From: Anaerococcus sp. AGMB09787
Lineage (GTDB): Bacteria; Bacillota; Clostridia; Tissierellales; Peptoniphilaceae
Reading direction: 5' to 3'
Length of the DNA: 45,640 nt
Assembly: GCF_022808955.1 (NCBI RefSeq)
Contig: NZ_JAKZEY010000008.1
Coordinates: 1-45,640, forward strand
Shown: positions 1,177 to 16,086 of the stretch, one piece after another
Layout of the letters: every line of letters starts with the position of its first letter
Numbering within the stretch: position 1 is the first letter of the stretch
Notes under the pieces: model-generated
Told to the model about the DNA's origin: nothing
The model's database searches: none
Seen by the model: the letters and a program-made list of their open reading frames with translations, nothing else
Made by a program: the position numbers and the translations under genes

Positions 1177-1196
1177 CTTTACTACTTGACAGATTT

Positions 1197-1466
1197 AAAC
1201 TGATGGACTATAATCTAACTAAATATAAATCATATGCAGAAGTAGTAGTGGGTAAAGCTTTATACAGAAAGAAAATGGTTGATGAGAATTTTCATAAGCT
1301 AGCCTAGTGAATGGATCTGCTAGATCAAAGGTGAACTAAAAGTAGCCTGCGGGTATTCTCGCCTTATTGAGATAGGATATGTATGTATCTAAAGATGTCT
1401 TTTAAAGGATAAGATGGATGGCACCGTGGGTCAAAGCTCGCTCCAATTAAGGAGTGGGCTTTTTAT
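1197..1466 (+). promoter_or_regulatory. T-box riboswitch, tryptophan specifier (UGG)
   Basis: Leader RNA that senses uncharged tRNA. Seen: a stem I region with ACAGAAAG and the GGTTGATGAGAA apical element near 1265-1290; then GAA-TGG-ATC, where the triplet TGG at 1312-1314 sits where the specifier codon is normally found; the T-box/antiterminator core GGATGGCACCGTGGG near 1416-1430; and an intrinsic terminator with a 12-bp stem (1433-1444 pairing with 1451-1462, loop AATTAA) running into TTTTATTTT. The specifier reads Trp, which matches the tryptophan transporter directly downstream. Family knowledge: uncharged tRNA-Trp would stabilise the antiterminator and switch on trpP under tryptophan starvation. 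The exact 5' end is approximate. Confidence 0.92.
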
Positions 1467-1487
1467 TTTGTGAAAAAAGGAGTTATT

Positions 1488-1982
1488 ATGAAAACAAGAA
1501 ATATCACAATATCAGCAATTTTTATGGCAGTTGGACTTGTACTACACTTTGTAGTACCACCAGTATTTTTTGGAGTTAAACCAGACTTTCTCTTATCAAT
1601 GATGTTTATATCATTAATCATGATTGATGATAGAAAAGAAGCCTTACTAGTAGGCGTAGCAGGTGGAGTAATGAGTGCCTTGACAACTGGTTTTCCAGGT
1701 GGACAAATCCCTAACTTTATAGAAAAAATTATAGTTTCTGTATCTATCTTTTATCTAATAAAATCTATGGGCAAAACCAACTTAAACAATATTAAAATTG
1801 TCATAATCTTTGCCCTAGGTACTTGCCTTTCCGGAGTCCTCTTCCTACTAATGGCCCTAGGTTTTACCAACCAACTAAATATGTTTATCCCATCCCTACC
1901 AGTAGTACTCGTAGCTATGGTAGTAAATCCTATCTTTGGAATCCTTCTAAACACTATTTATGGAAAATTTATAAGTAAATGA
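1488..1982 (+). CDS. trpP: Tryptophan transporter TrpP (ECF S-component-like)
   Basis: Small membrane protein (164 aa) of the TrpP/YhaG family, which takes up tryptophan. Seen: N-terminal MKTRNITISAIFMAVGLVLHF, a central GVKPDFLLSMMFISLIM segment and the GGVMSALTTGFPGGQIPNFIEK loop typical of the family, with about five to six hydrophobic helices. I chose ATG 1488 rather than the in-frame GTG at 1470 because AGGAG (1478-1482) lies six bases before 1488, while the GTG has no ribosome site and sits in the terminator tail. The Trp-type T-box directly upstream supports the assignment independently. Single-gene transcript ending at the hairpin at 1992-2033. Confidence 0.9.
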   Translation: MKTRNITISAIFMAVGLVLHFVVPPVFFGVKPDFLLSMMFISLIMIDDRKEALLVGVAGGVMSALTTGFPGGQIPNFIEKIIVSVSIFYLIKSMGKTNLNNIKIVIIFALGTCLSGVLFLLMALGFTNQLNMFIPSLPVVLVAMVVNPIFGILLNTIYGKFISK

Positions 1983-1991
1983 AGAGAAAAA

Positions 1992-2033
1992 ATATGACCT
2001 TCTTTGTCAGACTAAGAACAAAGAGGGTCATAT
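1992..2033. terminator. Bidirectional terminator between trpP and the peptide operon
   Basis: A 16-bp stem (1992-2007 with 2018-2033, one T-G wobble) around a 10-base loop. It is followed by CTATTTA on the plus strand and, read on the minus strand, by TTTTTTCTC, so it can end both trpP and the convergent opp operon. Confidence 0.85.
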
Positions 2034-2037
2034 CTAT

Positions 2038-2814
2038 TTATAGGCTTATAGATTTAAAAAGTTCCTTGGTATATTCGTGCCTATCATCACTTTCTAAATC
2101 GTAAGTGTCAAATAAGTCTACCAGCTCTCCCTTGTATAGGACACCAATCCTGTCACAAAGATAGGCTATTACATTCAAATCATGGGATATAAAGAGGCTA
2201 GTAAAATTATGCTTTTTTTGCAAGGACCTAATCAAGTTTAATATTTGTGCTTGGATTGAAACATCTAAGGCACTCACTCCCTCATCTATTATCAAGAATT
2301 CAGGATTAACGACTAGGGCCTGGGCTATGGCTATCCTTTGCTTTTGCCCACCTGATAGGCTGTCTGGATAGTAGTTTAGCACATCTTCTTCCATCTCTAT
2401 TTCTTCAAGAAGGTCCCTAATTAACTTTCGTCTTTCTTCTTTACTATAAATATCATGAATTTTAAGTATCTCTTCTATAGAAAATCCTATAGTTTTTTTG
2501 GGGTTTAGGGCCTGGTAGGGATTTTGAAAGACAACTTGGACTTCCCTACGATACTTCATTAGCTCATCCTTATTTAAACTTGCTATATTATTCCCCTTAA
2601 ATAAAATTTTCCCTGAACTTTCTTTTACCAACCTCAATATTATATTTGATAGGGTGGTCTTCCCTGAACCACTTTCTCCTACTAGACCAAATATTTCTCC
2701 CTTCTTTATATCAAAGGATACATGATCTAAGGCTAGCTTGTCCTTTTTCCTAAAAAGTATGCCCGATCCCTTATAGGTCTTACTAATATCTTGAATTTTT
2801 AAAATATTTTCCAT
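2038..2814 (-). CDS. Peptide ABC transporter ATP-binding protein (OppF/DppF type)
   Basis: Second ATPase of a peptide-type ABC importer (258 aa), cytosolic face of the membrane. Seen: Walker A GESGSGKTT, Q-loop VVFQNPYQALNP, signature LSGGQKQR, Walker B FLIIDEGVSALD, and the H-loop FISHDL. It lacks the Cys-rich C-terminal extension present in the OppD partner. An in-frame ATG lies at 2826, but ATG 2814 is preferred: GGAG sits six to seven bases before it, and it begins one base after the stop of the preceding gene, so translation is probably coupled. Last gene of the operon. Walker B reads DEGVSALD instead of the usual DEPTSALD, a tolerated variant in this family. Confidence 0.92.
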   Translation of the reverse strand: MENILKIQDISKTYKGSGILFRKKDKLALDHVSFDIKKGEIFGLVGESGSGKTTLSNIILRLVKESSGKILFKGNNIASLNKDELMKYRREVQVVFQNPYQALNPKKTIGFSIEEILKIHDIYSKEERRKLIRDLLEEIEMEEDVLNYYPDSLSGGQKQRIAIAQALVVNPEFLIIDEGVSALDVSIQAQILNLIRSLQKKHNFTSLFISHDLNVIAYLCDRIGVLYKGELVDLFDTYDLESDDRHEYTKELFKSISL

Positions 2815-2815
2815 C

Positions 2816-3781
2816 TTATTCTCCATACAAATGACAATTTACCTCATGGTCATTCCTGTAGGTGGTCGCAGGATAGGTTTTAAAGCACTTATCCATGACA
2901 AAGTCGCACCTATCAGCAAAGGGACATCCTTCGTTAGACCTGTTTTTAAGATCTGGCACACGTCCTTTTATATTGTATAGGTCTTGGCCCCTTTTCTTAT
3001 AATTTGGCACAGCCTTAAGGAGGGCCTTGGTGTAGGGATGGAGAGGACTATCAATTACATCTTTAGTAAGTCCCCTTTCGACAATCCTACCAGCATACAT
3101 TATCATTACTTTTTTTGAAATATTTTCTATAAGGTTTAGGTCGTGGCTAATAAAAACTATGGCTCCCTTGTAGATATGGGATATCTCCTTAAAGAGGTCT
3201 ATAATTTGGCTTTGAACCTTGGCATCTAGGGCTGTTGTTGGCTCATCAGCTATAAGGACATTGGGATTTGCTATAAGGGCCATAGAAATCACTATCCTTT
3301 GTTGCATACCACCGGATAATTCGTGGGGGTACTTGTGATAGAGGCTCTCTACATCCTTGAGTCCACACTTTTCCATAGTAGTATAGACTAGGTCTAGACG
3401 TTTTTTCTTGTCAAAGTCGTAGTGGATTTTTAATACTTCTTCGATTTGCTTACCTACTTTGATTAATGGATTTAGGGCAGAACCAGGCTCTTGGAAGACT
3501 GTAGCTATGTTTCTACTCCTATAGGGAGCCCACTGTTTATCATCAAGACCCAAGATTTCCTTGCCCTTTAATAGGCAAGAGCCTGACTTAATGATAGCAG
3601 ATGGTGATTCTATTCCCAAAATTGTTTGGGTCGCTACGGTTTTGCCACAGCCACTTTCTCCAACAAGACCCACAAAGTCATTTTCAAATAGGTCAAATGA
3701 TATATGGTTTACTGCGTATTTTTCGCCATTTGAAGTTGGAAAGGCAACTGTTAGGTCCTTTACTTCTAATAATTTATTCAT
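2816..3781 (-). CDS. Peptide ABC transporter ATP-binding protein (OppD/DppD type)
   Basis: First ATPase of the peptide importer (321 aa). Seen: Walker A GESGCGKTV, Q-loop TVFQEPGSALNPL, signature LSGGMQQR, Walker B VLIADEPTTALD, H-loop FISHDL, and a C-terminal oligopeptide/HPY-type extension with four cysteines, CPFADRC, then MDKC and NCH, the cluster-binding arrangement found in OppD/DppD proteins. Start ATG 3781 is preceded by AAGGAGAAGG and overlaps the end of the permease gene by eight bases, as in a translationally coupled operon. Works with the two permeases and the lipoprotein upstream in the transcript. Confidence 0.93.
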   Translation of the reverse strand: MNKLLEVKDLTVAFPTSNGEKYAVNHISFDLFENDFVGLVGESGCGKTVATQTILGIESPSAIIKSGSCLLKGKEILGLDDKQWAPYRSRNIATVFQEPGSALNPLIKVGKQIEEVLKIHYDFDKKKRLDLVYTTMEKCGLKDVESLYHKYPHELSGGMQQRIVISMALIANPNVLIADEPTTALDAKVQSQIIDLFKEISHIYKGAIVFISHDLNLIENISKKVMIMYAGRIVERGLTKDVIDSPLHPYTKALLKAVPNYKKRGQDLYNIKGRVPDLKNRSNEGCPFADRCDFVMDKCFKTYPATTYRNDHEVNCHLYGE

Positions 3782-4595
3782 GGTTTACCTTCTCCTTTAG
3801 TCTTCTTGTCCTAAACTTCTCCCCATAGAGGGTAAAGCCTAAAACTAGAAGTGATAGACAAATTCCTGTGGCTATAAAATAGTATGGGGCTTTGGAAAAA
3901 TATACTTGGCTTTCCTTGAGCATCCTACCCCAGGATGGATCAGGAGGTCTTACTCCCAGTCCCAAATATGATAGGCCACTTTCAGCTAGGATAGCCTGTG
4001 AAATTGAAAGGATTATAGCAACCATTAGTTGGTTTTTGATATTTGGCAAAATATGGTTGATGCCTATATAGATAGGACTTGCTCCCTTAACCTGAGCACT
4101 CTTGACAAACTGGGCATTTTTCACTTGCAAGAACCCACTCCTTACAACCCTAGCAAAGTATGGGACAGAAATAATACCTATAGCAAAGATCGTATTTACT
4201 AGGCTTGCACCAAATACCGAAACTAGCATCATGGCAAAAAGTATTCCTGGAAAGGCCATAAGGGAGTCGATAAATCTCATCAATACTTCATCAACCAGTC
4301 CACCAAAATATCCAGCACTGGCTCCAATTATTGCCCCTATCACAAGGGCAAGGCTCACTGTTCCAAAGGATAAGAACAAGGCGTATTTGGATCCTTCCAT
4401 TAGCCTAGATAGGATGTCCCTACCCATATTGTCAGTTCCCAAGAGATGGTCTAGGGATGGGGTCATAAGCTTTTCTTTTGTCATAATAGCATTTGGATCA
4501 TAGGGTGTCCAAAATAATGACAAGATAAATACTCCAAAGTAGAAAAAAAGTATAGCCCTCCCTAAATTTATAGAAATTTTATTATTTTTAATCAT
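3774..4595 (-). CDS. Peptide ABC transporter permease (OppC/DppC type)
   Basis: Membrane permease subunit (273 aa). Seen: an N-terminal helix, the LLGTDNMGRDILSRLMEGSKYAL stretch shared by DppC/OppC/NikC proteins (quoted here as landmark near residue 50-70), about six hydrophobic segments, and the EAA-type loop that contacts the ATPases around SAQVKGASPIYIGINHILPN. ATG 4595 is chosen over an in-frame GTG at 4601 because AAGGAG directly abuts the GTG (no spacing) but lies five bases before the ATG. The start lies within the last codons of the OppB gene (ATGATTAA overlap). Confidence 0.92.
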   Translation of the reverse strand: MIKNNKISINLGRAILFFYFGVFILSLFWTPYDPNAIMTKEKLMTPSLDHLLGTDNMGRDILSRLMEGSKYALFLSFGTVSLALVIGAIIGASAGYFGGLVDEVLMRFIDSLMAFPGILFAMMLVSVFGASLVNTIFAIGIISVPYFARVVRSGFLQVKNAQFVKSAQVKGASPIYIGINHILPNIKNQLMVAIILSISQAILAESGLSYLGLGVRPPDPSWGRMLKESQVYFSKAPYYFIATGICLSLLVLGFTLYGEKFRTRRLKEKVNHE

Positions 4596-5538
4596 TGCCA
4601 CTCCTTATTCTAGGATCTATTATCCCGTACAAGATATCTATTATTAGGTTAATAAAGATTACCAAAAAGGCAACTGCTACAACGACGCTTTGGATTAGTG
4701 GAAAGTCCCTTGATGATATAGATGATACTATCAAAGATCCTACCCCTGGAAGAGCAAAAACATTTTCTACTATAAGGCTTCCACCAACACTTGATGTAAG
4801 ACTCATGCCTATAACTGTGATTACTGGAATCAAAGCGTTTTTGAGGACGTGCTTATAGAGGATTTCTCTAATAGTAAGTCCCTTCATCCTGGCTGTTCTC
4901 ACATAGTCCTTGTTCATTTCATCCAAAATAGCCGCCTGCATATACCTTATAATAGTCGCTATATTTGGTATAGCTATGGCAAGGGATGGCAAGAAGAAGT
5001 TCTTGAGCTTATCCAAAAATCCCCCTGCCATGACATTGTAAGATAGGGTATTAAAAATCCCAAGTTTAACAGCGAATATATAAATTAGCATAAAGGCCAT
5101 CCAAAAGGAAGGAATGGAAATGCCGAGTTGGGTTATTCCTGTAATTATTGATGCATACCACTTGTCAGACTTTAGGGTTATTTGGATTGATAGGGGAATC
5201 GCTATTATTAGTGATAAAAATAAAGAAAAAAGACTTAGATATAGGGTAACAGGAAGTTTTTTGAGAAAAAGTTCACTAACAGGAACCCTGTACTTTAGGC
5301 TCTCTCCCATATCAAGTCTTAAAAGTCCTCCTATCCACTCTATATATCTTTGCGAAATTGGTTTATCAAGTCCCAACTCCCTCTCGATAGCTAGGACTTG
5401 GGCAGGATCTGCTTCGGTTCCCAGGATAATTCTTGCAGGATTACCTGGTATAATTTGGAAAACCAAAAATATTAGCAAGGAAACAAAAAATAAAGTTAGT
5501 AGGATGGACAATAGTTTTTTTACTATTGCTTTAATCAT
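4588..5538 (-). CDS. Peptide ABC transporter permease (OppB/DppB type)
   Basis: Membrane permease subunit (316 aa) forming the translocation pore with the OppC-type partner. Seen: an N-terminal helix ending in QIIPGNPARIILG, the family signature of DppB/OppB proteins, the periplasmic-face LGLDKPISQRYIEWIGG loop, five further helices and the ATPase-contact loop YVRTARMKGLTIREILYKHVLKNALIP, ending in IDPRIRSGND. It overlaps the lipoprotein gene by four bases at its start and the OppC-type gene at its end, so the five transport genes are one translational unit. Confidence 0.92.
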   Translation of the reverse strand: MIKAIVKKLLSILLTLFFVSLLIFLVFQIIPGNPARIILGTEADPAQVLAIERELGLDKPISQRYIEWIGGLLRLDMGESLKYRVPVSELFLKKLPVTLYLSLFSLFLSLIIAIPLSIQITLKSDKWYASIITGITQLGISIPSFWMAFMLIYIFAVKLGIFNTLSYNVMAGGFLDKLKNFFLPSLAIAIPNIATIIRYMQAAILDEMNKDYVRTARMKGLTIREILYKHVLKNALIPVITVIGMSLTSSVGGSLIVENVFALPGVGSLIVSSISSRDFPLIQSVVVAVAFLVIFINLIIDILYGIIDPRIRSGND

Positions 5539-7076
5539 TTTACATCTATATCCTCAAGGTTTAATTTTTGAACTGGATAAGTCTTTAATCCAGTAAGTTC
5601 TTCATTTAGACCATAGATTAAATCTGGGTCAGTTAGGTAGACACTACCAGCATCCTTGGCTATAATGTCTTGGGCATTCTTAACATTTTCAACTATTTCT
5701 TCTTGGCTTGATGCAGACTTAGCAGCTGCTATGGCCTCATCATAGTCTTCTGACTTGTAGTTGATAAAGTTCTTAGTATTATCAGACCTATACCTATCAA
5801 GAATTCTGATTGGATCAGTGTAGCCTATGAATCCTCCGACTGTTGTTTCAAAGTCCCTATTTTGATAAACCTTGTCTAACCAAGTAGAAAATTCTACTGG
5901 ATCTAAGGTAATCTCAACACCGATTTGGCTTAGTTGGGCTTGGATTAGCTCTGCTGTCTCTAGGTGGTACCTATAGTCACTTGGCACTGTAAGGCTTGCA
6001 GCAAAACCATCAGGATAGCCTGCTTCTTTCAATAATTCCTTGGCCTTTTCTACATCATAAGGATATGGATCTTCTTGGTCATTGTAGTAATCCTTTAGGG
6101 CTGGTGAAAATGTTGTATAAAGTGCTGCTGCCCTTCCCCCTGCTGCTGTTTCTATAATTTCTTCTTTGTTTATAGCGTGAGCTAGAGCTTGTCTTACCTT
6201 GATATCACTAAAAGGCTCAATATCGTTATTGAGACCAAAGACTTGGACAAGGTTTTGAGGTTTTGAGTAGATATCAACTCCCTCTAATTGATCAATTTGC
6301 TCATAGGTAAGTCCTGAAGCAAGGTCAACGTCCTTGTTATTAAGCGCCAAGACTAGACTTTGGGCATCAGGCACCCTAATTATTTCGACATTTTCAATCT
6401 TAGCTAGGTGGTCTTGGTTGTGGTAGTCATCAAATCTCTTTAGGACTAGGCCTTCTCCTGGTGTGTAGGATACGAATTGGTAAGGGCCTGTTCCTAGTGG
6501 TTTTGTAGCATTATCCTCATAGTCTTTTTTAACTATTGGTTGGTTAAGCAAATAGATGAAGGAATTATTTTTCTCCTTGAGGATGATTTTGATCTCAGTA
6601 GGTGATACTACTTCAAGGTCAGTTACCCCTTCGAAGTTTGAAGATAGGGCTTCACCACTAGTAATTCCAGCAAGCTTATCTATAGTATAGTAAACATCAT
6701 CTGCTGTAAAGTCTGATCCATCATGGAACTTGACCCCTTCTTTGAGTTTGAAATCATAGGTCAATCCATCTTCACTAATTTCATAAGACTCAGCTAGGTC
6801 TTCCACTAGGGAGCCATTTTCGTCAACATCTAGGAGACCATCAAAAACTTGGTCCATATAGGTCTTGGTATCTCCTGCTGTAGTTAGGAAGGGATCCAAG
6901 CTATCAAGTTCAATAGTCATCGCAACCTTTAGGGTATCCTTACTAGAGCTTGTACTTTCTTCTTCTACTGGTGCTTCTTCATTTTTTTCTTTGTTGCCTT
7001 CTGTGTTATTGTTGGCACAGCCTGTGAATAATAGGGCTGATGCAAATAATCCCAATATTAAATTTTTGCTTTTCAT
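5535..7076 (-). CDS. Peptide-binding lipoprotein of the ABC importer (SBP family 5)
   Basis: Substrate-binding lipoprotein (513 aa), anchored outside the membrane and feeding the importer encoded downstream. Seen: signal sequence MKSKNLILGLFASALLFTGC with lipobox FTGC (Cys20), an acidic/Ser-rich linker, then the family 5 fold with ELDSLDPF, FHDGSDFTADDVYYTIDK, and ALAHAINKEEII landmarks. ATG 7076 is chosen over an in-frame TTG at 7088; GGGAG lies five bases before 7076. Nickel, peptide and other ligands occur in this family; adjacency to an aminopeptidase favours peptides, an inference. Confidence 0.92.
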   Translation of the reverse strand: MKSKNLILGLFASALLFTGCANNNTEGNKEKNEEAPVEEESTSSSKDTLKVAMTIELDSLDPFLTTAGDTKTYMDQVFDGLLDVDENGSLVEDLAESYEISEDGLTYDFKLKEGVKFHDGSDFTADDVYYTIDKLAGITSGEALSSNFEGVTDLEVVSPTEIKIILKEKNNSFIYLLNQPIVKKDYEDNATKPLGTGPYQFVSYTPGEGLVLKRFDDYHNQDHLAKIENVEIIRVPDAQSLVLALNNKDVDLASGLTYEQIDQLEGVDIYSKPQNLVQVFGLNNDIEPFSDIKVRQALAHAINKEEIIETAAGGRAAALYTTFSPALKDYYNDQEDPYPYDVEKAKELLKEAGYPDGFAASLTVPSDYRYHLETAELIQAQLSQIGVEITLDPVEFSTWLDKVYQNRDFETTVGGFIGYTDPIRILDRYRSDNTKNFINYKSEDYDEAIAAAKSASSQEEIVENVKNAQDIIAKDAGSVYLTDPDLIYGLNEELTGLKTYPVQKLNLEDIDVK

Positions 7077-7110
7077 ATTATCTCCCAAAATATTATAGGT
7101 AAGTTATAAC

Positions 7111-7407
7111 TTACATTTTTTCCTTAACTGATTTAATCTTCTCTTCTAGACTTGCCTTCTTGTCACGTCTATCGTCTATCTTTAGTACGGTATATACCCT
7201 ATCTGCTCCCTTTGCAAAGACTTGCTCTTGCATGGCCCTTACAGCCTTAAGACCGAGGTCTATGTCAGCTTCAATTACTGTTCCCATTGGATTTAGCTCA
7301 TACCTTACACCCATCTCTTCCAAAACCTTCTCTGCCTCAGCTATATAGGGGCTGACTGATGTTGTCTTTGTACCGATTGGTATTAGGGTTACTTCTAAAA
7401 TTGCCAT
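7111..7407 (-). CDS. MTH1187/YkoF-like thiamine-binding family protein
   Basis: Small cytosolic protein (98 aa) of the MTH1187 family (ferredoxin-like fold, related to YkoF), members of which bind thiamine or related ligands. Seen: N-terminal strand AILEVTLIPIGTKTTSVSPYIAEAE, the YELNPMGTVIEAD stretch that is diagnostic for the family, and VYTVLKIDDRRDK. ATG 7407 starts at the base next to the aminopeptidase stop (TAA at 7410-7408), with GAGGAGG at 7413-7419 inside the end of that gene, so the two are coupled. The binding lipoprotein follows after about 35 bases. Why a thiamine-binding-like protein sits in a peptide operon is not explained by the sequence. Confidence 0.85.
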   Translation of the reverse strand: MAILEVTLIPIGTKTTSVSPYIAEAEKVLEEMGVRYELNPMGTVIEADIDLGLKAVRAMQEQVFAKGADRVYTVLKIDDRRDKKASLEEKIKSVKEKM

Positions 7408-8685
7408 TTAATCCTCCTCATAAAATCTCTTATAAATTTGATATGCATCTAAATGATCATCTACGCCTGCGCTCTCCCTTATAGAGTGCATGGCAAGGAT
7501 AGCTTCTCCCACATCAATTGATCTAATACCAAGCCTTGATGCTGTGATAGGACCTATGGTAGATCCCCCTACCTTGTCATTCCTATTGTGGAAGAATTGA
7601 AGGTTAAGTCCAAGATCCTTTGCAATATTTATTATCCTAGCCTTAGTCTCGATTGATGTAGAATAAGCACCATTTGCTGCAATTTTTACTACAAGGCCTT
7701 CATTCATATTTACAATATTAGTAGGGTCGGAAAACTCTTTGAAATTAGGATGGATAGCATGTGCCCCATCTGCACTTATTAGGAAAGAATTCTCGATTGC
7801 CCTATAATAATCTTCTAGAGGCTTATCTAGGCTTAGGCAAATTCGCTTCAAGACATCAGATAAAAATGTCCCATCTGCTCCAGTCCTTGTCATCGATCCT
7901 ATCTCTTCATTATCATTTAATATAAGGACATTGGTCTTCACTGAAAAGGTCCCTACAAAGGCCTTCAGTGATGCATGGACTGATGCCAAATTATCAATCC
8001 TACCAACTTGGTAGATAGAATCAGAAATTATAGAACCTTTCTGCCTATCGTATAGACTTAGGTCAAAATCTATAATATCCTTAGAGTCGATTGACAAATA
8101 ATCTCCTAGGAGTCTTTGAACAAAGCCATCTGCCTCTGCCCCATCCTTTATAGTCTTAACTATAGGATAGAGGTGGTTTTGGGGATTGTAGGCAAAGTCC
8201 TTGTTCACATTCCTATTCATGTGAATAGCTGCATTGGGAATAGTTAAAAGATCCCTATCGATATTAACAAGGTCCGTCTTAATCTCCCCATCCTCCTTGT
8301 AGATAACCTTACCTGCAAGGGATAAAGTCCTATCAAGCCATGTTGAATAAATCATACCTCCATAAGCTTCAACATTTAATTTTAAATAACCACTATCGGC
8401 TATTTCGGCATTAGACTTTAACTTAAAGGTTGGAGATTCTGTGTGGGATCCTATAAGGTCAAAACCCTTCACCAGGTCAGACCTTAGGTTAAAGGCGATT
8501 AGGGCAGTGTCATCTCTTTTTACATAATACTTACCCATATCCTCAAGCTCCCAGGAGTCAGCTTCCCTTAGCTCCTCATATCCATTTTCTTCCAAAAAAT
8601 CTACTGCATTATTTACAGCATAGTAAGAAACTGGACTTTGGTCAATAAAACCAATTAAATCTTTAATAAAATCTTCCTTCTTCAT
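7408..8685 (-). CDS. apeB: M18 family aminopeptidase
   Basis: Cytosolic dizinc aminopeptidase (425 aa, the usual M18 length) that removes N-terminal residues from peptides. Seen: metal-ligand region DLIGSHTESPTFKLK, NDNEEIGSMTRTGADG, the SADGAHAIHPNF region, and C-terminal GEAILAMHSIRESAG, all in the order known for M18 enzymes. It heads the operon with the peptide importer, so imported peptides would be cut by the first gene product: a coherent uptake-and-digest unit. No strong ribosome site is seen before ATG 8685. The first ~70 codons exist a second time at 14693-14902, downstream of the RiPP-like cassette. Confidence 0.93.
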   Translation of the reverse strand: MKKEDFIKDLIGFIDQSPVSYYAVNNAVDFLEENGYEELREADSWELEDMGKYYVKRDDTALIAFNLRSDLVKGFDLIGSHTESPTFKLKSNAEIADSGYLKLNVEAYGGMIYSTWLDRTLSLAGKVIYKEDGEIKTDLVNIDRDLLTIPNAAIHMNRNVNKDFAYNPQNHLYPIVKTIKDGAEADGFVQRLLGDYLSIDSKDIIDFDLSLYDRQKGSIISDSIYQVGRIDNLASVHASLKAFVGTFSVKTNVLILNDNEEIGSMTRTGADGTFLSDVLKRICLSLDKPLEDYYRAIENSFLISADGAHAIHPNFKEFSDPTNIVNMNEGLVVKIAANGAYSTSIETKARIINIAKDLGLNLQFFHNRNDKVGGSTIGPITASRLGIRSIDVGEAILAMHSIRESAGVDDHLDAYQIYKRFYEED

Positions 8686-8724
8686 ACTATCTATGCTACC
8701 GTATATTTGGCTAAATGCATTATT

Positions 8725-8752
8725 TTTATATAATTTCTGGTTAAATTTTTAA
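8725..8752 (-). promoter_or_regulatory. Possible promoter of the aminopeptidase-peptide transport operon
   Basis: On the minus strand TTAAAA (8752-8747), a 16-base spacer, then TATAAA (8730-8725). The -35 is weak; the position upstream of the first operon gene is the main support. Confidence 0.35.
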
Positions 8753-8780
8753 TTATCTTAATTAGATAAGCCTTTCCATC

Positions 8781-8808
8781 TTGATAAAACCATTATAAAC
8801 ATTATAAT
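8781..8808 (+). promoter_or_regulatory. Promoter of xpt copy 1
   Basis: TTGATA (8781-8786), 16-base spacer, TATAAT (8803-8808), 38 bases before ATG 8847. Conserved at the same place before xpt copy 2. No purine riboswitch sequence is present between promoter and gene. Confidence 0.7.
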
Positions 8809-8846
8809 AATAAAAAGTACTAAACAAATATCCATAAGGAGTTAAT

Positions 8847-9422
8847 ATGAAAGAACTAGAAGAAAAAATTCTTGAAGAGGGAATCGTTCTAGGTCCTAAC
8901 ATCCTAAAAGTAGATTCTTTCCTAAACCAACAAATAGATAGCGAACTTATCCTCAAAATGGGCAAGGCCTTTGCTCAACATTTCAAAGACAAAAATATCG
9001 ACAAGGTCCTAACAGTCGAATCATCAGGTATTGCCCCAGCCCTAGCTACTGCTATTGAGCTTGGTGTAAAATGCGTATTCGCAAGAAAACAACAATCCCT
9101 CACCACAGGTGATAATGTCTACCACTCATCTGTATATTCCTTCACTAAAGAAGTTACCAATGAACTTATAGTATCCAAAAACTTCCTCAATGAAGATGAA
9201 AACGTCCTAATGATAGATGACTTCTTGGCAAACGGTCAAGCTGCCAAGGGAATGGTTGCCCTAGTAAGACAAGCCGGAGCAAATCCTGCAGGCCTTGGTA
9301 TAGTAATAGAAAAATCTTTCTCTGATGGTAGAAAGGTTGTAGAAGATATGGGAATTGACCTCTACTCCTTAGCAAGAATTAAGAGCCTAGATGATGGAAA
9401 AATTGAATTTGTAGAAGAATAA
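8847..9422 (+). CDS. xpt: Xanthine phosphoribosyltransferase, copy 1
   Basis: Converts xanthine and PRPP to XMP in purine salvage (191 aa, normal Xpt length). Seen: N-terminal [29 protein letters not shown]-like start (here FLNQQID), the [13 protein letters not shown] segment, FARKQQ, and the PRPP-binding signature [15 protein letters not shown]. ATG 8847 has AAGGAG six bases upstream. It is divergent from the aminopeptidase gene. A second copy at 15062 differs at six residues, all but one in the first 75 residues. Unlike copy 2, this copy has no hairpin terminator after its stop: the sequence switches to cassette DNA within a few bases. Confidence 0.95.
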   Translation: [191 protein letters not shown]

Positions 9423-9425
9423 AAA

Positions 9426-9812: not shown

Positions 9813-11195
9813 TTATAAACTTAAAAATTTATATAGCAATGAAGAGAAAATTTTGAATTTCTTTTGTTCGTATCCATATACGAATGATTTGTGTAAATAT
9901 ATAAGATATTTTAACTGTAATGAATTTTCTTTTAGTATATATTGTAAAAACTTTAAAAATTTACCATTTGATACTAAATAATCTCTATATAATACTGACT
10001 TATCAATATACATATATGTATTAAAAAAATAATCTATAAGGACTATTAAGTTATCAATCGTCCCATCTATATTTTTCTTTATATTATAATAATTTGATAG
10101 TAATTTTTTATTTTGTAAAATACTGTAAACATCTTTATTCTTACTATAATTTTCTTCTATTTTATGAGAATCTAATAAAAGTATATCATAAAATTTTTTA
10201 GTTAATTCTGTCTCAGGAAAAAATTGAATTTTATTGATTTCAAAAATAATTAAAGCTTCGTAATTATTAGTTCTTTCTATTTTTTTTAATTCCCATATTA
10301 ATTTCAAGGTCTCATTCAAATCATCTTCCGTTTCCCTAGGATCAGATATTATAAATGAACATATAGTATTTATTTTACTATTTAACAAGTAATTAACATT
10401 ATTATATAATTGGCTCTTATCAATAACTTTATTATAATAATTTTGTATTTTTATACTTCCACTCTCTATTCCTAGAAATATAGATCTACATTTGCTTTTG
10501 CATAACATATCTATGACATTCCTATTTAATACATCTGTCCTCATACTACAAGAATACTCGTAATTTAAATTATTTTTATATTTTACAAACTCTTTAACAT
10601 CTTTCACGTTTTTGAAAAACAATTCATTAGTAAAAAAAACTGATTCGATATCATATTCTCCTATCAATTTATTTAATGTAAAATAGTCTACATCATAATT
10701 ATCATAACTTTTATAAGGTATATTTAAAGCGCAGTATTCACACACATATGGACAACCATTAAATGTATTTATAGAAATGTTCTTATTTTTATTATGATAT
10801 AGCAACTGATTACAGTCAAAAAGCTTTTGATAGTTTAATTTTAAAATATTAATATCGTCATACTTTTCTATCACAAAATCTGATATATAATTTAAATAGT
10901 TACCGAAAAATGTTATTTTATTACTTCCTCGATAAATATAATAAAGATATAAGGCATCTAAAATATTCTTGTATGTGACATGAATATAAATGTTGATGTC
11001 ATTAAATTTATAATTTTTAAAAAAGTGATCAATTATTTTATCATTATAAGTTTTCTTTTCTTTAATTTTCACACTTTTCGAAATATTTATTATTTCATTG
11101 TCTTTTAACAAATTATTCAAAATTAGTATCTCATTATCTACCTCAAAATCATTATTAATATTTAAATCATCTGCATCTAATATTATATTTTTCAT
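9813..11195 (-). CDS. Radical SAM protein (GIESGS-type), second enzyme of the RiPP-like cassette
   Basis: Putative 4Fe-4S radical SAM enzyme (460 aa). Seen: CPYVCEYC with Cys148, Cys152, Cys155 (CxxxCxxC), preceded by ISINTFNG as in cobalamin-domain-type radical SAM enzymes; FLGIESGS further on, a SAM-contact motif of that class; FIISDPRETEDDL. The ~140 residues before the cluster look like a degenerate Rossmann/B12-binding-type region (KITFFGNYLNYISDFV) but lack an obvious DxHxxG cobalamin motif. No SPASM cysteines at the C-terminus. ATG 11195 overlaps the exporter stop (ATGA), so it is the last gene of the cassette operon. Likely acts on the neighbouring peptide; substrate and reaction unknown. 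Strongly AT-rich codon use. Confidence 0.8.
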   Translation of the reverse strand: MKNIILDADDLNINNDFEVDNEILILNNLLKDNEIINISKSVKIKEKKTYNDKIIDHFFKNYKFNDINIYIHVTYKNILDALYLYYIYRGSNKITFFGNYLNYISDFVIEKYDDINILKLNYQKLFDCNQLLYHNKNKNISINTFNGCPYVCEYCALNIPYKSYDNYDVDYFTLNKLIGEYDIESVFFTNELFFKNVKDVKEFVKYKNNLNYEYSCSMRTDVLNRNVIDMLCKSKCRSIFLGIESGSIKIQNYYNKVIDKSQLYNNVNYLLNSKINTICSFIISDPRETEDDLNETLKLIWELKKIERTNNYEALIIFEINKIQFFPETELTKKFYDILLLDSHKIEENYSKNKDVYSILQNKKLLSNYYNIKKNIDGTIDNLIVLIDYFFNTYMYIDKSVLYRDYLVSNGKFLKFLQYILKENSLQLKYLIYLHKSFVYGYEQKKFKIFSSLLYKFLSL

Positions 11196-12787
11196 TTCAA
11201 TTCAACTTTCTTATAATATCTATTTTTATATTCATCGCTACTATTATGAGCTATATGTATTACCATCTTATCCTCTAAATTTAATATCAAATTTTCTATA
11301 TTTCTTGAATTATCGTTGTCTAAGCCTGATAGAATCTCATCTAAAATAATTATCTTTTTATCTGATAATAAAATTTTTGCCATATATAATCTTGATGCTT
11401 CGCCACCAGAAATAGAATTTATATCCTGATCTATAATTCTATCTAATCCATTTTCATCCAATATGTAAGATAAGTTTACATCATTAATAACCTTTAGAAT
11501 ATCTTCATCTGAATGAACACCAAGTGGATCAACGTTTTCTCTAATTGATTGATTAAAGATAAAACGATCTTGTGGAACATACATTATTTGTTTTTCTATA
11601 TCTACATCTTTCAATTCCCTTAGTTCTACATTATTATATTTGATAGATCCAGTATAATTTTCATTATATTTCATAAGAATTTTTACTAAAGTTGACTTGC
11701 CAGATCCACTATGTCCTATAATTAGGTATTTTTTATTATCTTCAAAGTTAATATTTAAGTCTTTCTTAAAAACTTTTTCGCCTATATTGTACTCATAATT
11801 AGCATTTCTAATCTTTATATTCCTAAATATTTCTCTTTTGCTTTTGTAATTATCAATATTTATATCTAAGACTTTCTCTATATTTTCGTTAATTTCTTTG
11901 ACCGTAGATATTCCTATAAAAGAATTGATTATATTTATCACAGGTTCTTGAATATAAACGGATAGTTGTACAAAAGTCATAAACATTCCAAAATCAATAT
12001 TTCCTCTTGTGAAGTATATAAAACTAAGTAGTACTGATGATACTTGAGAAATAGTAACGCCTGCATTCGCAAAGAAAGCTGATAAATTTGAAAGAAACTG
12101 ATCTTTTTTAGCAGCTTTTTTTGATTTATCTACAACTTTCGCCACTTTTCTTATAGAATTTTGATAGGAATTATTATTTTTAATTATTAGTATTGATTCA
12201 AGATACTCTCTCATGAATTCAAGTAAGTTAGAATTTTCTTGAATATTCTTTTTCGTACTTTCCCACATTTTTTTAGGAAAAACTACATTATTAATTATTA
12301 ATGGTAACATAAATACCATAAGAAACAGATTTATTTTTATATCTATTCTTGCTATTAATATAAAGACCCATAATAATGAAAGCGCACTAGTAATTATATT
12401 TATCCAGCTATCTAAATATCTAAATTTCCATGTATCTACCTTTGCCAAAATTTCATTATAAAAATATCCCTTAGGTTTTTTTGCTATATTTGAAGCCTTA
12501 GAATACATAATGTTTTCAAAAGATTTTTTCCTTATTTCAGAGCATATATCTTCCCTTATCAAACCTATATAAATATAATTAAATCCTGAAAATGATAAGG
12601 CAAATAATATAAGTAATACTATCTTAACCAACTCAAAAACTACTATATCTCCATTTTCTGTAAATATATTAGTTAATAAAGAAAAAGAGTAAGATATAGA
12701 AACCTGAGATAAAGATCCCAATAATATAGCGATTGCCAATAAATTTTTTTCTTTTAGTGTTAACAATTTTAAAATTTTTTTACTCAT
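11192..12787 (-). CDS. ABC exporter with fused membrane and ATPase domains
   Basis: Half-transporter of the ABC exporter type (531 aa). Seen: six-helix membrane domain in roughly the first 300 residues, then an ATPase domain with Walker A GHSGSGKS (about 358-365), VPQDRFIFNQSIREN, signature SISGGEASR (about 458-466) and Walker B KIIILDEILSGLD. There is no N-terminal C39 peptidase domain, so leader cleavage would need another protease. I chose ATG 12787 over the in-frame TTG at 12805: AAAGGA lies seven bases before 12787. It follows the candidate precursor gene by 43 bases and overlaps the next enzyme gene, so it probably exports the modified peptide and may give self-protection. Confidence 0.88.
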   Translation of the reverse strand: MSKKILKLLTLKEKNLLAIAILLGSLSQVSISYSFSLLTNIFTENGDIVVFELVKIVLLILFALSFSGFNYIYIGLIREDICSEIRKKSFENIMYSKASNIAKKPKGYFYNEILAKVDTWKFRYLDSWINIITSALSLLWVFILIARIDIKINLFLMVFMLPLIINNVVFPKKMWESTKKNIQENSNLLEFMREYLESILIIKNNNSYQNSIRKVAKVVDKSKKAAKKDQFLSNLSAFFANAGVTISQVSSVLLSFIYFTRGNIDFGMFMTFVQLSVYIQEPVINIINSFIGISTVKEINENIEKVLDINIDNYKSKREIFRNIKIRNANYEYNIGEKVFKKDLNINFEDNKKYLIIGHSGSGKSTLVKILMKYNENYTGSIKYNNVELRELKDVDIEKQIMYVPQDRFIFNQSIRENVDPLGVHSDEDILKVINDVNLSYILDENGLDRIIDQDINSISGGEASRLYMAKILLSDKKIIILDEILSGLDNDNSRNIENLILNLEDKMVIHIAHNSSDEYKNRYYKKVELK

Positions 12788-12807
12788 AATATATCCTTTG
12801 AACAATT

Positions 12808-12820
12808 ATTATGCCGACTT
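12808..12820. repeat. Inverted repeat arm A beside the candidate precursor gene
   Basis: ATTATGCCGACTT, the exact reverse complement of 13045-13057. Lies between the precursor stop and the exporter start. Confidence 0.85.
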
Positions 12821-12830
12821 AAATAATTAA

Positions 12831-13001
12831 CTAATCATTAATCAATTCTTGCTTTTTTAATTTAATAATTTCTATTAGTATGCTTTGTGTACTCCAATTA
12901 TTACATGCACAATTACTCATAACTACTTCTCCACAATTATTTCTCCTAACGTACTCTTCTCTTTGATTTTCTTTTTTTTCTAATAAACTTGTATTCTTCA
13001 C
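12831..13001 (-). CDS. Candidate RiPP precursor peptide, 56 aa
   Basis: Not recognised as a known family. Start GTG 13001 is preferred: GAGGAGG at 13006-13012 is the best ribosome site in the cassette, four bases upstream. A longer frame from TTG at 13067 would run through the inverted repeat and has no ribosome site. The peptide has a charged N-terminal part (KKENQREEYVRR, leader-like), then NNCGEVVMSNCACNNW with Cys23, Cys31, Cys33 and Trp36, then a hydrophobic/basic tail. Position between a SPASM radical SAM enzyme and an exporter suggests it is the substrate; thioether or other side-chain crosslinks at the cysteines would be the sactipeptide/ranthipeptide expectation. The precursor lying after its maturase is a less common order. 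Confidence 0.6.
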   Translation of the reverse strand: MKNTSLLEKKENQREEYVRRNNCGEVVMSNCACNNWSTQSILIEIIKLKKQELIND

Positions 13002-13044
13002 TCTTCCTCCTCGTATATTATATAAGTAAATTTTCTTAATTAGA

Positions 13045-13057
13045 AAGTCGGCATAAT
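13045..13057. repeat. Inverted repeat arm B beside the candidate precursor gene
   Basis: AAGTCGGCATAAT, exact reverse complement of arm A at 12808-12820; 224 bases separate the arms and the whole precursor gene, with its ribosome site, lies between them. Confidence 0.85.
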
Positions 13058-13073
13058 CATTATCCAAAAGTCC

Positions 13074-14351
13074 TTAAATTTTCCCTTCCAATATGTTAAT
13101 CATCATTAATTTTGAATGTATACAAAATCCAACATCAATATTATTTTTATTATATTGCTTATAACAACCACCTCCACATATAGGCAAAGCATAGCATTGT
13201 AAACATATTTCATTATAAATTGGACTTTTACATTTTATATTAATATTTTTATTTTCTATATTTAATAACTTTTGAAAACTGTAAGTTGTTATATTTCCAA
13301 TATAACTATTTTTATAATTAAAATCACAATTACATATACTAACACTTCCATCATAAGAAACAGTTATTTGCTCTCCAGCAATTGCAGAACAATCTGCATA
13401 TTTGAAAATATTCAAATAAAAGGAATTTAACTTTCTATTTATTCTATCTTCATATATATTTGAATTATAATTAAATAAATAACTATTTATTATAAATTTC
13501 GTTGCTTTTTCATAGTAGTTTTTAATATAATCAAAAGCAACATTTTTATCAAAATGAAGCATATTATAATTTATATTCTTTATATTTTCATTTCTATACC
13601 ATTTAATTACATTTTCAAAATTATTAATAACTTTTTCTGTAAGAGTAAGCGATATCCCAAAGTTTATAGAATATTTATCAAGCAATTCTTTTTTATCTAG
13701 TGCATTATTAAATACTTTATTATTATATCCTCTTCTTTCATTTATATTATTTGGTCCGTCTATAGATATACCAACACTTACATTATACTTACTTAAAAAT
13801 TTTATAACTTCTTCGTCTAAAAGAGTTGCATTTGTAATCATCGAAATTTTGTATGTGAATCCTTTTTTTCTTAAAGTTTCAACAATATAAAAAAATTCTT
13901 TTTTATTTAATAATGGTTCTCCTCCATAAAATATCAATATAAATTCTTCACGATTATTTTCTATGTATTCAAATACCCTATTAATTAAAATTTCCGATAT
14001 GGTTCTAGTCATATTCAAATAACCATTACTTATATACTTGTTTTTATAAACAAAACAATAATCACATTTCATATTACAAGAAGCAGATGGGACAACATAT
14101 AGAGTTTTTAAATTAATGTTCTTTTCAAATGTCCTAACAAGTAATTCATAAAGTTCTTTGTCAACTTTTTCATTCACGATATAGATAAATTTACTTAATA
14201 AGATTTTTTTCTCTTCTTTACTTACTTCGAAATTTAATATTCTCCTAAAAAATTCCTTATCTATATATAAAATTTCAAAATATATAATATTGTATATTGC
14301 ATATTCATTTTGTGAGATATTTATAAATTTAGCAAATTTTGATATTTTCAT
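13074..14351 (-). CDS. Radical SAM/SPASM peptide maturase
   Basis: Putative RiPP-modifying radical SAM enzyme (425 aa). Domains seen: an N-terminal ~80 residues of low similarity that may bind the leader peptide; radical SAM core with CNMKCDYC (Cys92, Cys96, Cys99) and GGEPLLN (143-149), NATLLDEE, ISIDGP; C-terminal SPASM domain with Cys321, Cys340, Cys342, Cys374, Cys383, Cys386, Cys392, Cys396 and Cys410, including CLQCYALPICGGGC, enough for two auxiliary 4Fe-4S clusters. This is the architecture of sactionine/ranthipeptide maturases and anaerobic sulfatase-maturase relatives. First gene of the cassette operon; a 56-residue Cys peptide is encoded 72 bases downstream. ATG 14351 has TAGGAG about eight bases upstream. 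Confidence 0.88.
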   Translation of the reverse strand: MKISKFAKFINISQNEYAIYNIIYFEILYIDKEFFRRILNFEVSKEEKKILLSKFIYIVNEKVDKELYELLVRTFEKNINLKTLYVVPSASCNMKCDYCFVYKNKYISNGYLNMTRTISEILINRVFEYIENNREEFILIFYGGEPLLNKKEFFYIVETLRKKGFTYKISMITNATLLDEEVIKFLSKYNVSVGISIDGPNNINERRGYNNKVFNNALDKKELLDKYSINFGISLTLTEKVINNFENVIKWYRNENIKNINYNMLHFDKNVAFDYIKNYYEKATKFIINSYLFNYNSNIYEDRINRKLNSFYLNIFKYADCSAIAGEQITVSYDGSVSICNCDFNYKNSYIGNITTYSFQKLLNIENKNINIKCKSPIYNEICLQCYALPICGGGCYKQYNKNNIDVGFCIHSKLMMINILEGKI

Positions 14352-14419
14352 TTAAACTCCTAATAGAAATTAAACTTTAAATTTTTCTTTATATTAATTT
14401 AAACTACGGTATATAAAAT

Positions 14420-14448
14420 ATAGTAACATATAATATAAATAATTGCAA
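14420..14448 (-). promoter_or_regulatory. Possible promoter of the RiPP-like operon
   Basis: Minus strand: TTGCAA (14448-14443), 17-base spacer, TACTAT (14425-14420), about 70 bases before ATG 14351. The surrounding DNA is so AT-rich that chance matches are likely. The 284 bases between this gene and the apeB fragment hold nothing else I can support. Confidence 0.4.
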
Positions 14449-14635
14449 TTATAATTCAGATAAATTTAGCAACTAAAAAGTCAAGTCCATAATATTGTGT
14501 AAATTAATCTATTTACAATATTCAATATCTCATTTTAATACCTATTCTAAATGATGTTATTCAATTACATTAATTTTTGCTCATTAATATAGTTTCTTAG
14601 CATATATATGTTTATCTCACATCTTCATCTAGTTT

Positions 14636-14902
14636 TCAATCCTTGTATATTTTGCTTCGTGTATGCATTGAGTAAAATTTACTATTAGCCAAATCAGACC
14701 TTAGGTTAAAGGCGATTAGGGCAGTGTCATCTCTTTTGACATAATACTTTCCCTTATCTTCTATTTCCCACGAATCAGTCTCTCTTAGTTCCTCATATCC
14801 ATTTTCTTCCAAAAAATCTGCTGCATTCTTAATAGCATAGTAAGAAACTGGACTTTGGTCAATAAAACCAATTAAATCTTTAATAAAATCTTCCTTCTTC
14901 AT
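14636..14902 (-). pseudogene. Truncated second copy of the M18 aminopeptidase gene
   Basis: Encodes the first ~70 residues of the aminopeptidase (through FNLRSDL), then 18 unrelated residues from cassette DNA and a stop. It keeps start codon and upstream region but none of the metal ligands, so it cannot be an active peptidase. Several substitutions against the intact gene (for example AIKNAADF versus AVNNAVDF, ETDSWEIEDKG versus EADSWELEDMG) show that it is not a recent exact duplication. It marks the right edge of the inserted cassette. Confidence 0.88.
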
Positions 14903-14995
14903 ACTATCTATGCTACCATATACTTCAACAAATGCATCTTTTATATAAATTCTAGTTGAGTTTTTAATTATCTTACTAGGAATACCTAACCCATC

Positions 14996-15023
14996 TTGAT
15001 AAAATCCTTATAAACATTATAAT
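14996..15023 (+). promoter_or_regulatory. Promoter of xpt copy 2
   Basis: TTGATA (14996-15001), 16-base spacer, TATAAT (15018-15023); same spacing and position relative to the start as in copy 1. Confidence 0.7.
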
Positions 15024-15061
15024 AATAAAAAGTACTAAACAAATATCCATAAGGAGTTAAT

Positions 15062-15637
15062 ATGAAAGAACTAGAAGAAAAAATTCTTGAAGAGGGAATC
15101 GTTCTAGGTCCTAATATCCTAAAAGTAGATTCTTTCCTAAACCAACAAATAGATAGCAAACTTATCCTCAAAATGGGCAAGGCCTTTGCTGAATATTTCA
15201 AAGACAAAAAGATCGACAAGGTCTTAACAGTAGAATCATCAGGTATTGCCCCTGCCCTCGCTACAGCTACAGAGCTTGGTGTAAAATGCGTATTCGCAAG
15301 AAAACAACAATCCCTCACCACAGGTGATAATGTCTACCACTCATCTGTATATTCCTTCACTAAAGAAGTTACCAATGAACTTATAGTATCCAAAAACTTC
15401 CTCAATGAAGATGAAAACGTCCTAATGATAGATGACTTCTTGGCAAACGGTCAAGCTGCCAAGGGAATGGTTGCCCTAGTAAGACAAGCCGGAGCAAATC
15501 CTGCAGGCCTTGGTATAGTAATAGAAAAATCTTTCTCTGATGGTAGAAGGGTTGTAGAAGATATGGGAATTGACCTCTACTCCTTAGCAAGAATTAAGAG
15601 CCTAGATGATGGAAAAATTGAATTTGTAGAAGAATAA
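15062..15637 (+). CDS. xpt: Xanthine phosphoribosyltransferase, copy 2
   Basis: Full-length Xpt (191 aa) with the PRPP signature [15 protein letters not shown] intact. Differences from copy 1: Lys for Glu at about 33, Glu-Tyr for Gln-His at about 44-45, Lys for Asn near 50, Thr for Ile near 74, and Arg for Lys near 170. None falls in the PRPP motif, so both copies are probably active. AAGGAG precedes the ATG. A hairpin terminator follows. The 5' third is diverged from copy 1, while the rest is almost identical at the DNA level, a mosaic that suggests recombination or gene conversion between copies. Confidence 0.95.
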   Translation: [191 protein letters not shown]

Positions 15638-15644
15638 AAATTAT

Positions 15645-15671: not shown

Positions 15672-16086
15672 ACTTTGATTAATATAACAATACATATGCT
15701 TTTATTTATAAGTCTTATTATTTAACTTTTGTAGGTAATAGGACATAATATTTTATACTATGTAAAGCTTCTAAAAATACACAATATTTTATACTATTTA
15801 AATCTTTCAGATTTAGATTCTTTCTAATCACAAATGATAATGCTCCTTGTTAAGTAAAACAAAAAGACCATTTATTAATTTAATATCTAATGTAGTATTA
15901 ATCAGCAATATATTAAACTTATATATAAGTTATCATATTAATATATATTTTGCAAAAATAATTTATATATTTCAAAGAGAGAAGTAATACTAGCTCTATA
16001 AATATTTGATGATAGAATTTCTCTGTTAAATTCCGATTTTTTATGGCATTATTAATCTTAATCATTTAATAATGCCTATCATTATC
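15672..16086. other. Gene-free AT-rich stretch with small repeats
   Basis: No supportable gene. It contains a 15-bp direct repeat AATATTTTATACTAT at 15747-15761 and 15783-15797 (36-bp period), and a perfect 11-bp inverted repeat GGCATTATTAA (16045-16055) / TTAATAATGCC (16066-16076) with a 10-base loop. No T-run follows the hairpin, so a terminator role is doubtful. Confidence 0.6.

Follow-up and report, generated by a model that had tools for sequence, protein, structure and literature searches.

A putative two-enzyme radical SAM RiPP cluster in Anaerococcus with a probably new precursor family and a possible RNA stem around the precursor cistron

Results

A four-gene radical SAM cluster encodes a conserved small peptide

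Contig NZ_JAKZEY010000008.1 of Anaerococcus sp. AGMB09787 (45,640 nt, analysed over its whole length and hereafter called the window; genome G000) contains four tightly packed minus-strand genes at 9813..14351. On balance we take them to form a radical S-adenosylmethionine (SAM) cluster for a ribosomally synthesized and post-translationally modified peptide (RiPP), with a new precursor family and with the chemistry, export and stem role proposed below. In order, the genes encode a SPASM radical SAM enzyme, a small peptide, an ATP-binding cassette (ABC) exporter and a second radical SAM enzyme. The more surprising part of the finding is a pair of inverted repeats that flanks exactly the peptide cistron and that, as our best guess, forms an RNA stem setting the precursor dose.

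At an E value of 1e-40 or better, relatives of the SPASM enzyme occur in 3/130 genomes of the family: the own genome, a second genome of the genus and one of another genus. The gene order is identical in all three clusters, namely the window, L010 in Anaerococcus provencensis (NZ_HG003686) and L045, which lies in the other genus and sits whole on a 5-kb contig beginning 256 bases before the SPASM open reading frame (ORF). Identities to the window are 59% (L010) and 43% (L045, for the piece after an in-frame TAA) for the SPASM enzyme, 54% and 32% for the second radical SAM enzyme and 71% and 41% for the exporter. A radical SAM maturase gene adjoining a small precursor gene, the broad hallmark of radical SAM RiPPs (RaS-RiPPs), is present in 3/3 clusters. 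All three were found through enzyme homology and not through a peptide motif, and their small ORFs, each preceded by a ribosome site as read from the sequence, share the aligned core NC[A/S]CNNW[S/Q]T[Q/H]. The cluster is not a product of chance, as two other species have the same gene order and core motif.

The invariant residues of the precursor include N30, C31, C33, N34, N35, W36 and T38; in the window the core N30-C31-A-C33-N34-N35-W36-S-T38 is encoded at codons 12888-12914. Cys23 has no counterpart in the two other clusters, and a C-terminal tail, IIxLKKxELIN, is common to the window and L010 only. The peptide can be read as about 28 residues of leader, followed by a core around SNCACNNWSTQ and a tail at the C-terminus. 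The L010 ORF is split: the start, with its ribosome site, shares a frame with a leader-like half (LEKK), and the core half is read in a different frame, which may represent an error, decay or something else. The ORF has no Pfam match above cut-off and no NCBIfam match, and it probably founds a new radical SAM RiPP family absent from the libraries searched. The first-pass annotation had already interpreted the locus as a RiPP cluster with a precursor of no named class. The RiPP interpretation is supported by the ORF, Cys31/Cys33 and the ribosome site, which keep the same place in 3/3 clusters, and the absence of a named class holds for the Pfam and NCBIfam libraries. Gene order with a conserved cysteine pattern, which that annotation had pointed to as a check, is present in two other family genomes, the pattern being Cys31/Cys33. 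Of its three thioether candidates, Cys31 and Cys33 alone are conserved.

ORF coordinates and Pfam domains likewise agree with the four genes as first placed. The SPASM peptide maturase (425 residues, 13074..14351) matches Radical_SAM (63 bits) and SPASM (27 bits). The 56-residue precursor (12831..13001) has a GTG start with a GGAGG ribosome site just upstream. The ABC exporter (11192..12787), with a probable ATG at 12787 and a longer TTG-initiated ORF from 12805, matches ABC_membrane and ABC_tran; a peptidase domain is absent from its Pfam matches, in line with the earlier description. The second radical SAM enzyme (460 residues, 9813..11195) carries a GIESGS motif and has Radical_SAM as its only Pfam match.

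In the genome collection, 35 loci encode SPASM relatives, with L010 alone close (59%) and the next best at E 1e-23. Plasmids and phages hold distant relatives only, and viral contigs gave no relative of the second enzyme, four distant loci for the SPASM enzyme and 13 CxCNNW motif matches. In a class sample of 391 genomes, the second enzyme matched 11 at 1e-25, own and A. provencensis included; of the other nine, the two that were read (G052 and G442) are other systems, and the remaining seven are G481, G323, G570, G463, G598, G482 and G440. A phylum sample of 398 genomes queried with the SPASM enzyme gave the own locus and one distant locus, G936, where the small ORF contains Cys but is of another kind and no peptide with CxCNNW was seen; the flanks of that ORF pair at -18.9 kcal/mol, a figure without background comparison. 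No further orthologous locus was recognised among the matches read in the two samples. CxCNNW itself has matches in 89 of 249 genomes of the order, A. provencensis and G103 among them. Among the 30 motif loci listed, the context NCxCNNWxT is found at the window's own locus only; the other CxCNNW frames span 11 to 65 codons, stop to stop.

Inverted repeats bracket the precursor cistron

The inverted repeats, which the first-pass annotation did not mention, flank exactly the precursor cistron in 3/3 clusters. In the window the 5' arm (13035..13071, minus strand) begins 2 nt past the SPASM stop codon, and the 3' arm (12794..12830, minus strand) starts directly after the precursor stop and extends as far as the ABC gene's ribosome site. 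Flank duplex energies are -35.1 (window), -32.5 (L010) and -22.7 kcal/mol (L045); dinucleotide shuffles were as strong in 0/2000, 0/2000 and 14/2000 cases, respectively. When the same geometry is moved through each cluster in turn, the strongest pairing falls at the precursor, out of 702 (window), 849 (L010) and 677 (L045) positions. Folds of the whole region have z values of -2.8, -5.6 and -1.8 in the same order. In L010 the arms form a perfect inverted repeat of 22 bp, and the three departures from complementarity in the window arms are G-U pairs. No Rfam family matches at E 0.1.

Arms exchanged between L045 and either the window or L010, in either direction, pair at -9 to -15, the level of shuffles, while swaps between the window and L010 keep -24 and -20. 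At five pairs, one of which lies outside the continuous helix, both partners differ between the window and L010 and still pair.

We propose that the arms pair in the mRNA, closing a loop that would hold only the precursor cistron. Such a stem would separate precursor expression from that of the enzymes and the exporter, so that much substrate could be made per enzyme. RNase III might process the transcript, the stem might shield the short message, or it might hide the ribosome site that follows. The idea resembles operon RNA processing and stabilization, in which mRNA processing sets gene dosage within an operon, according to the accessible part of one account (PMC10667835). Titles and abstract openings in the literature gave no evident work on stems that bracket a RiPP precursor.

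Similar putative stems occur at some other RiPP-type operons of the family

A second RiPP-type operon was observed in the own genome (L132:3311-6463, G000:C16) and in genome G028 (L151, G028:C61), with relatives in 4/130 family genomes, one of which has a masked stretch (L158). It encodes a 44-residue peptide with SSCGxxCGG that ends in SSCGKACGGTKNTED, a SPASM enzyme and a 153-residue protein with HTHP; this protein has no Pfam match above cut-off, and we take it to be JAMM-like. A helix-turn-helix protein with tetratricopeptide repeats (HTH-TPR regulator) and a divergent 51-residue ORF with DNDTIYLC are its neighbours. The peptide gene is bracketed as well: 90-nt flanks pair at -40.0 in L132 and -34.9 in L151, with 0/253 and 10/253 background positions as good, and the L132 fold has a z of -4.4. 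Here the bracketed gene stands at the operon front and, as read from the sequence, the 3' arm covers the next start codon. The L132 repeat spans 28 nt at 93%, and one pair is changed on both sides between L132 and L151.

A third RiPP-like operon of the own genome (L125:4875-9636, G000:C48) encodes a 611-residue B12-type radical SAM protein, a 307-residue SPASM protein, a 504-residue ABC exporter and two small ORFs whose ends resemble each other (GIKIGSLYLNV and ASIGSFYIEK); like proteins are found in L165. L119 encodes a 44-residue peptide resembling these small ORFs and ending in GVKVGNVYVDVA, a precursor by position only. Its arms are weaker (33 nt, 73% complementary), with 3/252 background positions as good.

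To define a strict repeat we used Watson-Crick pairing over 20 nt with at most 2 mismatches and arms 120-320 nt apart. The window and 14 loci (about 201 kb) contain four, three of which bracket precursors (L010, L132 and L151) and one of which does not (L147). With G-U pairs allowed, the window repeat passes as the only one of 10 places with 1 mismatch. A further 41 loci (34 SPASM-relative and 7 others, 542 kb), in a minority of which a precursor was identified, contain three strict repeats. One lies inside a 633-residue ORF (L168) and another past the last annotated gene of L169. The third, at L014:7648-7961 in a Lachnospiraceae metagenome-assembled genome, resembles a miniature inverted-repeat transposable element (MITE); it stands directly upstream of a SPASM-type gene, and no precursor-like ORF was recognised inside it.

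Several unrelated radical SAM RiPP operons of one family may share an RNA device, in which arms at the borders of the precursor cistron close a loop holding that cistron only, wherever it lies in the operon, and so cut out, protect or insulate the precursor message. We advance this tentatively, as an idea nearly as plausible as its opposite. It would not extend to RiPPs in general, since a Clo7bot locus and G000:C48 show no such stem and two FibroRumin precursors pair weakly.

The two radical SAM enzymes and the proposed product

The SPASM enzyme carries a CxxxCxxC motif (C92-C96-C99) and a SPASM set of C321, C340, C383, C386, C392, C396 and C410, all invariant in 3/3 clusters. Most likely it would form a thioether between Cys33 (or Cys31) and a backbone or side-chain carbon close by, with Asn30 as the first candidate partner of Cys33. 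The core contains N-x-x-C in 3/3 clusters (N30-C-A/S-C33), and Asn30 is singled out because this spacing fits the chemistry of NxxcB, which bonds Cys to the beta-carbon of an Asn that precedes it by three residues, according to the portions available of two papers (PMC13361665, PMC8326336). NxxC is described there as one of 16 streptococcal RaS-RiPP subfamilies tied to Rgg regulators. Compared by description only, the NxxcA/NxxcB systems resemble the window cluster in pairing a SPASM-bearing radical SAM enzyme with a short precursor containing N-x-x-C; the window cluster differs in its invariant C-x-C-N-N-W, its second, cobalamin-type radical SAM enzyme and its genus.

The second enzyme appears to be a cobalamin-group radical SAM protein whose cofactor domain is eroded, as judged from profile alignment and fold matches on the one hand and the lack of a PF02310 match on the other. 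An hhalign comparison with three B12-type radical SAM proteins gave 99.95% over 376 columns, spanning columns 4 to 398, with only moderate column confidence in the N-terminal part. PF02310 (B12-binding) is absent from the second enzyme in 3/3 clusters at E up to 1, whereas 3/3 comparison B12-type enzymes match it, one below the curated cut-off. The predicted structure is weak (pLDDT 57), and its N-terminus alternates strand and helix; OxsB, AprD4, MgmA, MiaB and TsrM are among its nine best Foldseek matches. AprD4 (PDB 6fd2) is also a weak sequence match (E 3.5e-4). An N-terminal Rossmann-like domain, expected of cobalamin radical SAM enzymes, is thus indicated by hhalign, the weak model and the matches to OxsB, TsrM and MgmA, and a recognisable B12-binding domain is lacking. 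The degenerate Rossmann-like N-terminus read from the letters earlier agrees with profile comparison and fold search, both weak in that region. AprD4 works without cobalamin and provides a precedent for an eroded domain. AprD4, OxsB and TsrM, matched in fold from a weak model, have different substrates.

The nearest named families of the second enzyme are the cobalamin-dependent radical SAM methyltransferases PhpK (72 bits, cut-off 600) and ApyD (71.5 bits, cut-off 750); besides the low scores, the second enzyme differs from them in having no recognisable B12-binding domain. ApyD beta-methylates Tyr in a RiPP, as stated in the available part of PMC10635010. The Foldseek listing contains a TsrM structure with tryptophan. 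TsrM methylates Trp. Because ApyD and TsrM act on aromatic residues in this way and Trp36 is invariant, we name this residue as the leading candidate target of the second enzyme, which most likely would add a C-methylation or another hydrogen-abstraction change on Trp36 or its neighbours. A protease encoded elsewhere would trim the peptide, and the ABC protein would export the product.

Points against the RNA-stem and RiPP interpretation, and alternatives

Several observations weigh against the interpretation given so far. The next unrelated positions in the sliding comparison reach -29.4 (window), -19.8 (L010) and -20.0 (L045), so that the margin is wide in L010 only. With 90-nt flanks, 7/251 (window) and 12/254 (L045) background positions are as good, and the L045 whole-region fold, at z -1.8, is equalled by 4/100 shuffles. 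The window and L045 repeats fail the strict Watson-Crick definition. No such stem is seen at nine small genes of a Clo7bot locus (seven of them annotated Clo7bot peptides) or at two small ORFs of G000:C48; two FibroRumin precursors pair weakly, at -10.5 and -19.1 (figures without background), and some non-precursor ORFs rank high by chance (8/252 in L125, 10/253 in L043). Only three clusters are known. The L010 precursor is split over two frames and the L045 SPASM gene has an in-frame TAA between ORFs 257-439 and 443-1540, for which decay, error or recoding may account; two of the three clusters may thus be decayed or misread. TM-scores for the weak model of the second enzyme (pLDDT 57) are 0.24-0.38 among 18 matches, with E up to 0.001.

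The product might be a signal, a modified autoinducer in a quorum circuit, instead of an antimicrobial. We consider this unlikely, although of the alternatives it fares best. The L010 cluster is adjoined by an HTH-TPR regulator (RRNPP-like, XRE-TPR) and a divergent 42-46-residue hydrophobic ORF, and Rgg/SHP systems control streptococcal RaS-RiPPs, as the available part of PMC13361665 reports. The likeness to Rgg/SHP lies in a regulator with a divergent short ORF beside RiPP operons of the genus; the difference is that neither regulator nor pheromone-like ORF adjoins the window cluster. The own genome holds one regulator relative, on another contig beside another operon, and the L045 genome has no regulator match at 1e-5. 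The regulator and its relatives occupy 14 places in 11/130 family genomes, all of one genus. Of the 13 places examined (the last is cut by a contig end), at four a short hydrophobic ORF with a D..TIYLC-like ending runs divergently to the regulator (two found by pattern, all four by eye), and at three a RiPP operon was recognised by eye next to the regulator, with a remnant at a fourth. No shared regulator-binding motif was found upstream beyond AT-rich similarity.

Short basic-hydrophobic ORFs with D..TI.LC-like ends, a putative pheromone family, were observed at L010:7819-7959, at L132:4308-4463 and in L151 and L152. At L134:4532-6387 (G024:C6) in A. provencensis, a regulator paralogue is accompanied by an exporter and an 88-codon SPASM remnant that matches the final part of the L132 enzyme; this is a decayed RiPP operon.

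Somewhat less probable still is that the repeats act as DNA, being recombination or transposon ends that would make the precursor an invertible or exchangeable cassette in a fixed operon. Their position at the cistron borders, the perfect 22-bp repeat of L010, the long L132 repeat and the MITE-like repeat adjoining a SPASM-type gene in L014 would all suit such a role. Arm sequences, however, differ among clusters with pairing kept, and G-U pairs, which only RNA tolerates, number three in the window arms and two in L119 (by eye). All six armed precursors (window, L010, L045, L132, L151 and L119) point in the operon direction. No recombinase was noticed by eye among the ORFs beside the clusters, and no family search for one was made.

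Membership of the cluster in the FibroRumin systems, as a divergent example, is very improbable. TIGR04136 (FibroRumin) is the best NCBIfam model for the SPASM enzyme, making this the nearest named maturase family by score, and a Campylobacter plasmid FibroRumin maturase is 30.8% identical to it over 98% of the query. The score, however, is 168.3 bits against a cut-off of 400, and the genuine Campylobacter maturase, as positive control, reaches 707.4. Two Cys-rich Campylobacter FibroRumin precursors score 54.9 and 62.0 bits with TIGR04135, which does not match the window precursor; the Cys-rich precursors with a YxxLFGLI leader typical of that family are absent here, and the Campylobacter stretch examined carries no annotation of a second radical SAM enzyme. 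The cut-offs exclude both maturase and precursor from the family and, with true members scoring 707 (maturase) and 55 and 62 (precursors), the window system is a relative of FibroRumin and not a member. Behind FibroRumin come anaerobic sulfatase maturase with 112 bits, the ranthipeptide maturase PapB with 110 and YhhB with 101; apart from the sulfatase maturase, these best matches are RiPP maturases, which favours the RiPP reading. Among the 25 listed of 53 matches, none reaches its cut-off and no NxxC model appears.

A metabolic role for the enzymes, with the small ORF there by accident, hardly seems credible: radical SAM enzymes have many roles and two of the three clusters carry lesions, but the ORF holds its place and core in 3/3, at the best-pairing position of each cluster.

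Genomic setting and prior literature

The cluster is flanked by two copies of a 950-bp direct repeat (8477..9425 and 14694..15640) that are 94.3% identical. Each contains the 5' part of an aminopeptidase gene, presumably of the M18 type, and xpt (274.5 bits, cut-off 177); the right aminopeptidase copy is cut to an 88-codon ORF. In 1-kb bins the GC content is 21-25% at 10001 to 15000, 34-41% at 1 to 9000 and 28-42% from 16001 on, and the genes neighbouring the L010 cluster differ from those in the window. Flanking repeat copies and low GC together suggest that the cluster arrived by recombination, on incoming DNA that brought along a further copy of the genes next to it. At 15736-15806, downstream of the right-hand xpt, stand two 35-nt direct repeats, 36 nt from start to start and 83% identical.

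Full-text searching found little literature on radical SAM RiPPs in the genus Anaerococcus. For A. prevotii, PMC4289311 includes Apre_1837 as a radical SAM locus of the thuricin-like kind. Literature searches found nothing on Anaerococcus with RRNPP, nor on Peptoniphilaceae with radical SAM and precursor peptide.

Implications

Anaerococcus is a human-associated genus, and the cluster brings together, in one small operon that is open to test, two different radical SAM enzymes and a precursor whose CxCNNW core is invariant. If the bracketing of the precursor is true, it would offer a simple, testable case of one operon making many substrate peptides per enzyme. If the RNA device is indeed shared among operons of the family, precursor and arms would form a jointly selected unit in which the stem is conserved rather than its sequence.

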